51,664 nucleotides of DNA from Saccharospirillaceae bacterium. GTDB lineage: Bacteria > Pseudomonadota > Gammaproteobacteria > Pseudomonadales > Natronospirillaceae. The notes beneath the pieces are model-generated. The model was not told the DNA's origin. It made no database searches and was given only the letters and a program-made list of their open reading frames with translations. Shown piece after piece: positions 3,083 to 36,655 of this stretch. A program made the translations under genes and the position numbers. Where the stretch lies: assembly GCA_007116635.1 (NCBI GenBank), contig SKIB01000053.1, positions 1 to 51,664 of the forward strand, given 5' to 3'. Position 1 is the stretch's first letter, and each line of letters starts with the position of its first letter.

Positions 3083-6280
<3,198 letters not shown>

Positions 6281-32215: not shown

Positions 32216-32422
32216 ATGGCGCGTTACAGCGAAGAGCGTAAACAGCAGATTTTGAGTAAATTACTTCCTCCCTCGAACCTGTCTGTAGCAGAAGTTGCCA
32301 GAACAGAAGGTGTTGGCCTTCAGACTTTGTATAATTGGCGTGACAAAGTAAGACAACATGGACTAACTCACAATTATAACCAGCAAAATCTAAAGCCCAA
32401 GAAGCCTGCCCCCTGGCTATAA
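32216..32422 (+). pseudogene. IS transposase OrfA remnant (N-terminal HTH part)
   Basis: A 68-codon frame. Residues 1-50 (ARYSEERKQQILSKLLPP, LSVAEVARTEGVGLQTLYNW) match the helix-turn-helix N-terminus of small transposase subunits of IS elements. After about residue 50 the similarity is lost and a stop follows. No second transposase frame, DDE domain or terminal inverted repeats are visible nearby. This is a decayed insertion sequence end between rsgA and the DUF945-like gene. Confidence 0.7.
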
Positions 32423-32466: not shown

Positions 32467-34791
32467 TCACCTCAGATCCTCTCCACTTAGCAGCAAGGTT
32501 GCTGGTATCGGCTCCTGTAGTTGGTTAAAGCTACCCAACCAAATTCGATATTCACCCTCAGGAGCCAGTGGCCAATACAGCATAGGATCTAGATCACGCT
32601 CTAGACCATCATCATCGCAATACCACTGACCATCAGGCCCTAAAACCATGAGCGTGCCATCCCAGTCCTCTCCCGTTAACACCGCCATGTATAGAGACTC
32701 AACCTCTTCAGTTAGCATTAGCAGGGCATCAGGTCCCTCAGGCTGAAAGTAACCAACACAAAGCCAGTTATCACTTGAGCTTTGTGGGTATAGAGCCTCT
32801 AAGCTCATATCCCATTGCTGAATCAAGGCCGGAGTTTGACCCAGCTGGATAAATTGCTGGCGAAAGGGAAGCTCAGCATTCAAAGGCAAAGCTTGCTCAT
32901 CAAACCAGTTAAAATCATCATTGTCCACTCCCAGTTCATCACTAGGATCCTCACTGCCTATAAACAGCTCTGCCTGGCTGGCATCAAAGGCATTAAAACT
33001 TCCAACCCAGATACGATACTCTCCGACCTCGGGCTCTGACCAACTCAGCAGCGGGTGCAAAGTGCCTAGAATACCATCGTCATTACAGTAAAGGTCACCA
33101 TTGGGTGCCTGCACAAGCAACAGAGTATCGTCATCAGAAAGCACATAAAGATGAAGCTCTTGCTCAGCTACCAGTTGGTAGTCAAGCAACACATCAGGCC
33201 CCTGAGTATTAAAATACCCAGGGCATTCCTCTACCTCAACACCATGTTGATGCAGGTTTAGCAGCAAGGGCACAACCTGCGGATTCGGAAAGTACTCATC
33301 AGCTATGGATAGCCTTGCTTGGCGATATGCTGCCGTAACATCCAATTGTTCAAAAATCGGCTCAGGCCAATCAAAGCCGTTCTGCCCCCAATCCTCATCC
33401 CAGCCAAGGTCAGAACCATAGGCTTGCATGTTTAAAGCGTCATACCAAAGCATCTCCAGTAAAAACAACAACTCATCATTTACCTCGGAATTGACGGATA
33501 ACTGCGACGCTTCAAGTAACAGCTCTACAAACCAGTTAGGCTCAAGGTCTTGCAAGTAAGGCTCAACCATCATCCAGGTTGTGAGCAGATCAAACTCACT
33601 TAACAAACCAAACTCAACCGCTGTAGCAAGCAACTGATCCAAAAGCTGCTGATCTACCTGTGCAGCCAAGCGCAAACGCCCCTGCTCCACATACTGAGCA
33701 AAATCGGCAAGCAACAATAGTTGCTCAACTTCCAACGTCAAAATAAAGGGAGTCTGATCTGCCAAATGAACCGACAGACTACTGTTAAGCTGGGCTTGCT
33801 CTACCAGATCGGCCAGCAAGGCAATTATTTGCTCATCGTTCTGTAAGTTAGTAGCCTGATTGAACTGCTGCCAAGCAGCTATATCCATCCCCTGCATGGC
33901 TAACTGCCAATGCCAACTACTCTGCTTGACAAGGTCTTCAATCAGATGCCCGTCAAGGTCTAGATCAAGATCAAAACCTGACAGGCCAATGTCCATGCTT
34001 ATGGCCAGGCCTTCATCTTCTATCTCTGTCAGGGTTGCAAAGCTGATTGGACCAAGGGCCAGTGGTGGCTGGCCGTCAGTTAAGTCCAGGGTTAGGCGCT
34101 GAACTGATAGCTGCTGATCACCTAGCCAAATGCCCTGCTCTAGCGATTGATCTAAGGTTAACAACCAATTTTCAGAACCAAAGTGTAGGCTGTCTAGCCA
34201 GTCGGTAATGCTCAGTTCAATACTTTCAATCTGCGCCTCAGCCTGAAGCTGAGTCAGGTTATGATCGAACACCAGGCTTTGTTGCCAGTTTTCTGCCTCA
34301 AGGCTGATCAAAAGGTCTTCAACACCGAGCGTCAAGGCGAATAGCTGATAATCACTATCAAAGACCAGCTGATCACTGGTAAGCCAAAGTTGATCAGTAC
34401 CCTGCATTGTCAGCCCTTCAAACGGGCTATGACCAATACTGGAAGCCCGAGCCAACACAATGCCATGCTCAGCATGCCATATAGGCCCCTGGCGAACCGC
34501 AAAAGACCAGCTATGAGTTCGTTGCCACCAAGAGCTCGGCAACCAATCAAACACCTCTTCTAATTGTTGCTCAAAGAATACAGGGTCAAGACGATATTCA
34601 AAACTCAACAAACCATTGTGCAGGTTAGCGTCGTAATTTACATTGACTTGACTAAAGGCTGGGTTTTGTTGCAGCTCAATGCTTAATAATGCTCCTTGCA
34701 AACGAATCTGCTGGGCTATATAGGATTGCGCAAAAACATAGCCTATGGCCAGCACAAGAGCCAAAGCCAGGGCCCAAACAACCTTTTTCAT
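32467..34791 (-). CDS. DUF945-like envelope protein fused to two C-terminal beta modules
   Basis: A 774-residue, strongly acidic exported protein. Residues 1-22 form a signal anchor (VVWALALALVLAIGYVFA). Residues 30-470 resemble the YdgA/DUF945 family: a long beta-rich region with repeated LxLxxx strands and FEYRLDPVFFEQQL near the start. Two related modules follow at about 515-620 and 670-772, each with C-x-GYF near its start, GPD(V/A)LL, a (N/D)G.(L/W)YC(N/D)DDG motif, and a final GEYRIW(V/L)GSFN. They resemble pre-peptidase C-terminal (PPC-like) periplasmic modules. AAGGAA precedes ATG 34791. The function is unknown; no catalytic site is seen. It is divergent from the HDOD gene with 160 bp between. 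Confidence 0.8.
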   Translation of the reverse strand: MKKVVWALALALVLAIGYVFAQSYIAQQIRLQGALLSIELQQNPAFSQVNVNYDANLHNGLLSFEYRLDPVFFEQQLEEVFDWLPSSWWQRTHSWSFAVRQGPIWHAEHGIVLARASSIGHSPFEGLTMQGTDQLWLTSDQLVFDSDYQLFALTLGVEDLLISLEAENWQQSLVFDHNLTQLQAEAQIESIELSITDWLDSLHFGSENWLLTLDQSLEQGIWLGDQQLSVQRLTLDLTDGQPPLALGPISFATLTEIEDEGLAISMDIGLSGFDLDLDLDGHLIEDLVKQSSWHWQLAMQGMDIAAWQQFNQATNLQNDEQIIALLADLVEQAQLNSSLSVHLADQTPFILTLEVEQLLLLADFAQYVEQGRLRLAAQVDQQLLDQLLATAVEFGLLSEFDLLTTWMMVEPYLQDLEPNWFVELLLEASQLSVNSEVNDELLFLLEMLWYDALNMQAYGSDLGWDEDWGQNGFDWPEPIFEQLDVTAAYRQARLSIADEYFPNPQVVPLLLNLHQHGVEVEECPGYFNTQGPDVLLDYQLVAEQELHLYVLSDDDTLLLVQAPNGDLYCNDDGILGTLHPLLSWSEPEVGEYRIWVGSFNAFDASQAELFIGSEDPSDELGVDNDDFNWFDEQALPLNAELPFRQQFIQLGQTPALIQQWDMSLEALYPQSSSDNWLCVGYFQPEGPDALLMLTEEVESLYMAVLTGEDWDGTLMVLGPDGQWYCDDDGLERDLDPMLYWPLAPEGEYRIWLGSFNQLQEPIPATLLLSGEDLR

Positions 34792-34951: not shown

Positions 34952-36655
34952 ATGGATACATTTAGCCCCGAACTGCATCACTGGCTATCTCGCTTAAGTC
35001 AAAAGCCAATGCCCATATGGCTTAGCCAGACACAAATTGAATCGGCGGCTACTCAGGGCAATGCTCGCTTGGCACAACTGATTGACCATGATCCTCTGCT
35101 GGCCACGCGTATCTTCCATCACTGCCGTAACGCCAAAGATGGTGCAACCCTTAAAAGCATTAATCAGGCTGTGGAATCCTTTGGCGCGGGTCAGATTCGC
35201 ACCCTAAGCCAAGATCTACCTAGACTGAGCCCAGGTAAAACAACCGACCAACACCTACTGCAAAGCATCGGCGATGCCTTACTGGCAACCAGCCTATTAC
35301 GCGCCTGGTTTGAACTCAAGGGCATTCCTTGGAGCGACGAAGACTACTGGCTTTCAGTCATGGATGCCAGTGCCATCTGGGCCATGTGGTGGCTAGAACC
35401 TCAAATTATGGAAGGATTTGAATATCAGCTGGAAACCAAGGGAAAAGTACTACACAAGAGCATTTCCGAGCACCTAAATTGTCGCTACTTGGAGTCCATC
35501 ACTGGGCTAATGTCGCTTTGGCAACTACCAATAGCCCTTAATCTTGGTCAAGCTAAGGCCGCTGAGGGCCAATTACTCTACAAGCGCCAAGCGCTTAAGT
35601 TTTTTTTACGCTTTGCTCATGAACTTGCTCAGGCCAGCCGATATGACTGGCAAAGCATCAGCTTCCAGCAGCTTTGTCGCCGCGGCAGCATAGCTCTTGG
35701 TATACAAGACTTTGAGCAGCAGTTGATTAACTGGATGAGCGCAGCGAGCAAGCAACACCCTTTGATGCCTTGGGTCGGCACTGCGTTGAGCCAACACCAA
35801 CATGGACATCAACCCAATTGGCTCAGTACCGAGCGTTATCGTATGGCTCAGCAGCATAGCAATAACCATGAAGTCCAGAGCGCCAAGTCGCAGGTACTGG
35901 ATGACTGGCCAGCCCACAATGACAGCCGTACTAACCACCCATCTGTTTCGGTGGACAAGAGTTTTCAAGCCAAAGACATCGCGCCAGATCAGCCTGGCGA
36001 CATCACCGCCACAAACAAGTCAGAGGCTGCAAAGCCCAGAGCGCAAATTTCTAAAGCCATTAACAGCCAAGAAAACAATTTAGATATTTCAGGCACACCC
36101 CTGCATCAACGCATTCCTCCACAGGCCAAGCCAGAATCCAGAGCTTCCAAGTTCCAAGCCAAGCCTCTTTTTTATGATGTCAAACAGGCCATGCTCAGGC
36201 TTCATCCTCCCTTCTCAACCCAGCTAGACCTTGAGTACAGCCTGATACAGGCCGCACAAACGGGCTTAGAACTAGACAGTTTTATTCTCTGGCGTAAAGC
36301 CAATACTGACCCTTGGTTTGAATTGGTCAGCTGGAGAGGCAATGTTGAACTGGCCAGCCGCCTACCCTTAAAGGGCTCCACCATCTTGCAACAGTTTGCG
36401 GCCCAGCCTGTCAGCCTTTGGATCAATGATCAAAATCGAGACAAAACACAGGCACAACTACCCCTCAGCTTGAAGGAACTAACAACCAACCAACATCATT
36501 TTTTCCGTGGCGTACAAAGCTCAATGGGAGCCTTTTTGCTGCATGGTATTAGCAAAACCCTTGGGACAGATGATCAGCGCCAGCAGTATCAGCTGTTCCG
36601 TGAGCTTGCCAGCGCTTTTGGCAAGGCCTGTGAACAAATACAAAAATTTGGCTGA
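34952..36655 (+). CDS. HDOD-domain protein with C-terminal GAF-like region
   Basis: A 567-residue cytoplasmic protein. Residues 15-250 fit the HDOD fold (QLIDHDPLLATRIFHHCRNA, SINQAVESFGAGQIRTL), a catalytically inactive HD relative used in bacterial signalling and motility control. Residues 290-390 are polar and probably disordered. Residues about 400-565 (YSLIQAAQTGLELDSFILWR and onward) look like a GAF-type sensor domain. AAGGTAAGAG lies upstream of ATG 34952. The gene precedes psd, and a weak hairpin with T8 (36679-36709) follows. A specific partner cannot be deduced. Confidence 0.82.
   Translation: MDTFSPELHHWLSRLSQKPMPIWLSQTQIESAATQGNARLAQLIDHDPLLATRIFHHCRNAKDGATLKSINQAVESFGAGQIRTLSQDLPRLSPGKTTDQHLLQSIGDALLATSLLRAWFELKGIPWSDEDYWLSVMDASAIWAMWWLEPQIMEGFEYQLETKGKVLHKSISEHLNCRYLESITGLMSLWQLPIALNLGQAKAAEGQLLYKRQALKFFLRFAHELAQASRYDWQSISFQQLCRRGSIALGIQDFEQQLINWMSAASKQHPLMPWVGTALSQHQHGHQPNWLSTERYRMAQQHSNNHEVQSAKSQVLDDWPAHNDSRTNHPSVSVDKSFQAKDIAPDQPGDITATNKSEAAKPRAQISKAINSQENNLDISGTPLHQRIPPQAKPESRASKFQAKPLFYDVKQAMLRLHPPFSTQLDLEYSLIQAAQTGLELDSFILWRKANTDPWFELVSWRGNVELASRLPLKGSTILQQFAAQPVSLWINDQNRDKTQAQLPLSLKELTTNQHHFFRGVQSSMGAFLLHGISKTLGTDDQRQQYQLFRELASAFGKACEQIQKFG

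Follow-up and report, generated by a model that had tools for sequence, protein, structure and literature searches.

Introduction

The DUF945 family (PF06097) is present in Escherichia coli, where YdgA and YihF belong to it, and in many other Gammaproteobacteria. Passages in published papers place YdgA in the inner membrane of E. coli O157:H7 (PMC3210124), list it, ahead of the outer-membrane part of a table, among the proteins more abundant in the vesicles of a strain mutated in tolA (PMC7973035), and term its Y. pestis ortholog a putative phospholipid-binding protein, citing YdgA oligomers (PMC2663777). The literature found for DUF945 and, among the matches listed, for YdgA and YihF includes no functional study as judged by titles and the opening lines of abstracts.

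PPC domains (PF04151), on the other side of the comparison made here, are jelly-rolls with an acidic calcium-type motif that sit C-terminally, often in tandem, in secreted proteases and collagenases such as ColG (its collagen-binding domain, CBD), KP-43 and Tk-SP. A related arrangement occurs in the ligand-gated channel DeCLIC, a membrane protein with two tandem periplasmic jelly-roll lobes at its N-terminus. According to the cryo-EM report, the side chains that coordinate calcium at Site 1 of DeCLIC are those of Asp76, Asp123 and Asp124, whereas Site 2 uses the backbone of Asp124, Gly126 and Gly128, and a calcium site of Tk-SP overlaps Site 1; the lobes become more mobile once calcium is removed (PMC12664993; related passages in PMC9897478).

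Here we describe a gene of a Saccharospirillaceae bacterium in which a DUF945 protein is followed by two PPC-like modules. It lies in a contig stretch of 51,664 nucleotides that was analysed as a whole and is called the window below.

Gene and domain organisation

The gene is a 774 aa open reading frame on the minus strand (32467-34791; protein P0001) with an ATG start, the stop codon being included at the 32467 end, and a stretch AAGGA at 34804-34800, 8 nt upstream of the ATG. P0001 shares with the DUF945 family its body (aa 1-434) and the hydrophobic N-terminal segment, and differs from it by about 280 extra C-terminal residues that hold the two modules. Its features are as follows.

32467-34791, minus strand: the complete gene, coding for 774 aa with a DUF945 body and two PPC-like modules (ORF, sequence)
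34729-34782, minus strand: hydrophobic N-terminal segment, aa 4-21, a signal anchor, or perhaps a signal peptide cleaved between VFA and Q (sequence; predicted helix aa 2-41)
33490-34791, minus strand: DUF945 body, aa 1-434, with the Pfam core at aa 145-336 (window-free profile, Pfam, model)
33319-33471, minus strand: linker, aa 441-491, predicted helix up to aa 461 and then a low-confidence part (pLDDT <50 at aa 463-466 and 468-486)
32956-33318, minus strand: PPC-like module 1, aa 492-612 (model strands, window-free profile, PPC-fold PDB matches)
33127-33129, minus strand: Asp555, first residue of the module 1 aspartate triad (D in 17/17 fused and 304/308 other modules)
33073-33090, minus strand: YCNDDG, aa 568-573, with Cys569 and with Asp571/Asp572 of the putative calcium site (motif, conservation; a DeCLIC stretch aligns)
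32992-33024, minus strand: GEYRIWVGSFN, aa 590-600, conserved module 1 strand (G590 and W595 in 17/17 fused modules)
32830-32874, minus strand: inter-module link, aa 640-654, probably flexible (pLDDT <50)
32485-32820, minus strand: PPC-like module 2, aa 658-769 (model strands; sister of module 1 in the tree, 99/91)
32605-32622, minus strand: YCDDDG, aa 724-729, second aspartate motif, together with Asp711 (motif, conservation)
32524-32556, minus strand: GEYRIWLGSFN, aa 746-756, conserved module 2 strand (motif)

P0001 is very acidic, with a net charge of -109, or -14.1 per 100 aa, the lowest density among the listed ORFs of at least 200 aa in the window (the next being -9.8 per 100 aa). A Pfam search at E up to 10 found nothing in it besides DUF945, and no protease domain; NCBIfam gave a single match, which lies below its cut-off.

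The N-terminal body

P0001 is a divergent DUF945 (YdgA-type) protein, and a chance resemblance is excluded. PF06097 matches aa 145-336 with 34 bits against a gathering cut-off of 26.8, and a body profile built from 62 relatives, with the window left out, aligns aa 1-434 to model positions 5-447 (43.9 bits, E 4.7e-14). The set searched with this profile held 52 sequences, namely P0001, its reverse and 50 shuffles, of which the top shuffle reached 2.9 bits and the reversed protein was not listed. In the same 52-sequence set, a profile from the 12 fused relatives alone scored P0001 at 21.1 bits (E 3.8e-7; top shuffle 5.0), and one from the 50 non-fused relatives alone at 25.3 bits (E 2e-8; top shuffle 0.8). 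All 63 members of the body alignment, the window's included, match DUF945 at E up to 1, and P0001 is the sole DUF945 match in the window's genome, in a search that recovered the E. coli DUF945 protein as a control. A preliminary description of this DNA, made from its letters, had proposed a YdgA-like N-terminal region; the Pfam match above cut-off and the window-free profile over aa 1-434 confirm both that region and its relation to DUF945.

The structural model of the body (pLDDT 79.9) consists of a helix at aa 2-41 followed by long antiparallel strands with short helices. With Foldseek its best match is the lipoprotein JlpA (3uau), whose half-barrel is open and hydrophobic on its concave side, at a probability of 0.97 but an E of only 0.013, and nothing was found at E <=0.001. 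JlpA ranks ninth in the VIA list (Z 9.7, 229 residues at 5.6 A, 9% identity), and porins and other outer-membrane barrels are spread over Z 8.3-10.2, up to above JlpA. We do not regard the porins as kin of the body and read these matches as a common strand arrangement; because the JlpA match is weak and porins rank above it, the half-barrel likeness of the body may itself be only such an arrangement. A search for solved structures significantly related by sequence to the body or to the modules returned none. The predicted strands are two-faced on average: over the 18 body strands of at least 7 residues, the mean face difference is 2.69 versus 1.56 in shuffles, none of 5000 being as high, a test that left out four shorter strands and in which four of the 18 show almost no two-facedness (0.1-0.6).

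PPC-like modules

The C-terminal tail of P0001 is a pair of PPC-like modules, and here too chance is excluded. A window-free module profile, from stretches of 74 relatives taken out of 173 tandem stretches found, covers aa 482-769 with 161.1 bits, the top of 50 shuffles reaching 1.6. PF04151 itself matches neither P0001 (E up to 10), nor the module stretch alone (E up to 1), nor anything else in the window's genome, and it is matched at E up to 1 by 55 of the 75 members of the module alignment, with a best E of 1.9e-9. The two pairs of YC(N/D)DDG and GEYRIW-GSFN motifs named in the preliminary description lie exactly at aa 568-573/590-600 and 724-729/746-756.

The predicted fold of the modules is a jelly-roll (pLDDT 81.7). 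The top Foldseek match is the tandem of ColG collagen-binding domains (E 1.3e-7), after which SID1-type RNA transporters follow in the list; VIA gave the ColG CBD at Z 9.2, Tk-SP at 8.8, a collagenase PPC at 8.7 and KP-43 at 8.5, with the C-terminal domain of a clostridial enterotoxin, another jelly-roll, at Z 7.8-8.5. We take the SID1-type transporters and the enterotoxin domain as sharing the fold only. DeCLIC was matched at Z 7.3-7.7 with an rmsd near 18-20 A over its two lobes. Since, according to the VIA documentation, a Z below 8 can reflect a common arrangement, the PPC reading also leans on the Pfam matches of the relatives, which together with the predicted fold bear out the PPC-like repeats proposed earlier. 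We term the modules PPC-like and do not file them as PF04151, because the Pfam profile missed them and other jelly-rolls reach Z 8.5. They further differ from PF04151 domains in a CxG...C(N/D)DD cysteine pattern and in a partner that is not a protease.

Modules of this kind were matched in 5 of 57 genomes of relatives (the window's own included) and in 14 of 390 genomes of the same order. In named genomes, 589 stretches matched the module patterns and 524 were confirmed; among the 80 of these that were listed, most belong to Maricaulis and other Alphaproteobacteria, and some to Bacteroidota, Chloroflexi and others. We also considered whether the modules derive from elsewhere in this genome and set this aside, as P0001 is the only module-bearing place found there. 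Carriers read by eye include standalone secreted proteins and trypsin-like proteases. Four secreted proteins (L003, L004, L005 and L017) join the module to a cysteine-bearing motif of the GDN(S/T)S...ANDGECDDPRF type, which is repeated in L017.

Conserved aspartates and a putative calcium site

Each module of P0001 carries an aspartate triad, D555/D571/D572 in module 1 and D711/D727/D728 in module 2. The full triad is present in 17/17 fused modules, which come from 13 proteins and include the window's two, and in 301 of 308 other modules; the 325 rows remained after dropping those with fewer than 95 residues, unread letters or identical repeats, and they were chosen by profile, which favours conserved motifs in such counts. 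The fused modules outside the count (L042, L200, L201 and L230) show the D...CDDD pattern by eye. The cysteine pair 523/569 is kept in 13/17 fused and 301/308 other modules. Four fused modules (L028, L029, L034 and L035) have lost Cys569 and kept the triad. These same modules carry another cysteine elsewhere (e.g. DSNCDS), so that their disulfide may have moved, and in the module tree they cluster with two modules that are not fused, L054 and L171.

By their motifs, the triads correspond to Site 1 of DeCLIC. The DD...G.Y.IW.G stretch of the module profile aligns to DeCLIC residues 122-150, which start with DDDGG, at an E of 0.42 that alone is not significant, and Asp555 would take the place of Asp76 by order along the fold, a correspondence at motif level and not a residue-level structural alignment. 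Judged by this analogy and by conservation, the modules of P0001 likely bind calcium, and the metal binding that the DDDG motifs had earlier suggested is a fair reading, the motif corresponding to the calcium site of the DeCLIC N-terminal lobe. Like DeCLIC, P0001 would be a membrane protein bearing a tandem pair of jelly-rolls in the periplasm, with an Asp triad and the DDDG motif of Site 1. The two proteins differ in that the DeCLIC lobes are N-terminal and belong to a channel, whereas the modules of P0001 are C-terminal; in DeCLIC, helices are also inserted between both parts of the calcium site. P0001 would add, beside DeCLIC, a non-protease and probably membrane-anchored setting for PPC-like modules.

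Recurrence and descent of the fusion

The fusion is not peculiar to this genome. Besides the window's we found 16 DUF945-PPC fusions, several of them mutually close, of which 15 belong to one family of the same order and one to a genome elsewhere in the class. We call the former family Pseudohongiella-type, since two of its fused proteins exactly match ORFs in named records, L139 one of an uncultured Pseudohongiella and L138 one of a Gammaproteobacteria bin. DUF945 occurs in 70 of the 137 genomes of this family, and 15 of the 35 DUF945 places examined there carry one or two C-terminal modules. The 35 places comprise 30 loci (12 of them fused), two in the genome G513 (L200 and L201, both fused) and three picked for their frame length or for a split match (L230-L232, of which L230 is fused). 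G513, a single contig of 6.6 Mb, holds three separate fusion genes (L199, L200 and L201), and one further fusion sits in a single-contig genome of 1.9 Mb. In the window's own family DUF945 is found in 8 of 22 genomes, and of these eight only the window's is fused. A wider search used a profile built from 12 fusions, including that of the window, with at most three candidates scored per genome. Besides the window it gave a single fusion in 390 genomes of the order (G360, a member of the Pseudohongiella-type family), a single one, confirmed, in 369 genomes of the class (G565) and none in 398 genomes of the phylum.

The preliminary description held the fusion to be undescribed. This stands as far as the literature is concerned, where we found neither a publication on a DUF945 plus PPC architecture nor a well-characterised family with it; the 16 further cases show that it is not a one-off. 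Because the fusion recurs among relatives with varying forms of the module, it offers a handle on an unstudied family.

The Pseudohongiella-type fusions have the same domain order as P0001, with one or two modules, but only 14-16% body identity to it, and their modules fall elsewhere in the module tree. A tree of 65 DUF945 bodies, built without the modules, has a starred set (97/90) made up of 14 fused rows and two non-fused ones from the window's family (L065 and L164). The fusion label needs two changes on this tree, versus 12.9 in shuffles, and the fused bodies are compatible with a single clade (p-AU 0.169), the window's body being a long branch. The module tree held 89 modules, namely the 17 fused ones, those of loci near the window's taxa and 45 drawn at random from the remainder; L042, which has unread letters, and L200, L201 and L230, fetched later, were left out. 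On it the fused modules require five changes, of which the starred branches force at least three, and one clade of fused modules is rejected (p-AU 7.5e-5 with 17 rows; 5.5e-50 without the window's two). Descent of all fusions from one inherited gene is thus allowed by the bodies and rejected by the modules, which indicates repeated capture or exchange of modules. A clade restricted to the window's modules and those of the larger Pseudohongiella-type group, of seven proteins (12 rows), is not rejected (p 0.216), so that the window's modules may share descent with these, in a tree with few columns, an unsettled bootstrap and a long branch for the window's module 2. Modules 1 and 2 of the window are sisters (99/91), which suggests that they arose by local duplication.

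Tentatively, and as a possibility that we rate well short of even, one DUF945 branch may keep a C-terminal position for calcium-binding PPC-type modules, filled anew on several occasions by modules of differing origin. These would then serve as an exchangeable part for calcium-dependent docking or switching in a periplasmic half-barrel that binds lipids or clients, which would be an undescribed type of envelope protein. The repeated uptake of one type of module by a single branch suggests that the free end of the body works near a target of such modules.

Proposed role and alternative explanations

We propose that P0001 is a DUF945 half-barrel that stands in the periplasm, is anchored in the inner membrane and docks through modules stabilised by calcium, a reading to which we give a probability of about 0.5. 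The N-terminal helix would anchor the protein in the inner membrane, and the body would form an open, one-sided amphipathic beta half-barrel. Its ligand, a speculative point, would probably be a lipid or some other hydrophobic or unfolded molecule. The two jelly-roll modules would sit at the free end of the body; a single disulfide probably closes each of them, and at least one calcium ion bound at D555/D571/D572 or D711/D727/D728 probably makes it rigid. With calcium bound they might form a stiff docking tip directed toward the wall, the outer membrane or a protein partner; without it they would turn mobile, as the matching DeCLIC lobes do. The modules are also the soluble part of an otherwise opaque family, and could be tested for calcium binding and used to fish for partners.

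It is unlikely, though it deserves weighing, that the modules are mere appendages for folding or stability, or are trimmed off when the protein matures, like the PPC domains of certain secreted proteases, with the body doing all the work. This would fit the frequent joining of the module to proteases: three of ten module proteins scanned (two of the ten being DUF945 fusions) have Pfam trypsin matches, and trypsin-like partners were read by eye in L006, L009, L011 and L013. One paper (PMC3327674) deals with mature forms of a protease that have or lack PPC domains. P0001, however, has no Pfam protease domain, and in three close relatives the modules are more constrained than the body: in all three pairs of L024, L030 and L031, dN/dS is 0.04-0.15 for the modules and 0.17-0.22 for the bodies, so that purifying selection keeps the modules there.

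An adhesin at the surface or outside the cell, with the signal peptide cleaved, a JlpA-like body and collagen-binding-like modules, seems to us a rather poor explanation. The surface lipoprotein JlpA and a collagen-binding domain are indeed the best Foldseek matches of the two parts, and cleavage between VFA and Q is possible by eye. The JlpA match is weak, however, and unlike the lipoprotein JlpA, P0001 has no lipobox, there being no cysteine in aa 1-500. Other fused members look by eye like uncleaved signal anchors, and E. coli YdgA was assigned to the inner membrane in the paper cited above (PMC3210124).

Quite improbable is a third explanation, in which the modules act as inhibitors of periplasmic enzymes on a membrane-anchored stalk, in the manner of PliG, the inhibitor of g-type lysozyme. 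PliG is among the VIA matches of module 1 (4dzg at Z 7.9, 4dy5 at Z 7.0), and the DeCLIC authors name it as a similar fold (PMC12664993), but values of Z near 8 are within the range of common arrangements, and the triad is nearly invariant over the 325 modules with their varied partners, which points to a structural ion site. Finally, a wrong joining of two genes in this metagenome-assembled genome, imaginable given its 146 contigs and the lack of a near copy of the whole gene in 57 genomes of relatives or 390 of the order, is effectively refuted by the recurrence of the fusion, the frame being single and unbroken and the same body-then-module order being found in 16 other proteins, three of them in the 6.6 Mb and one in the 1.9 Mb single-contig genome.

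Gene neighbourhood

The fused gene stands alone on the minus strand between plus-strand ORFs of the window. One of these neighbours we take to be rsgA; the other, a 567-aa ORF at 34952-36652 on the plus strand, has no Pfam match at E up to 0.1. Among 16 stretches compared, gene neighbours are common to near relatives only, and we therefore did not read a function from them. A 68-residue ORF at 32216-32422 on the plus strand, convergent with the end of the fused gene, matches HTH_Tnp_1 above the Pfam cut-off and is apparently the remnant of an insertion sequence. Further away, at 3086-6280 on the minus strand, the window holds another acidic protein, a lipoprotein-like ORF of 1065 aa (net charge -104) with seven DUF4397 stretches and a CBM5/12 module.
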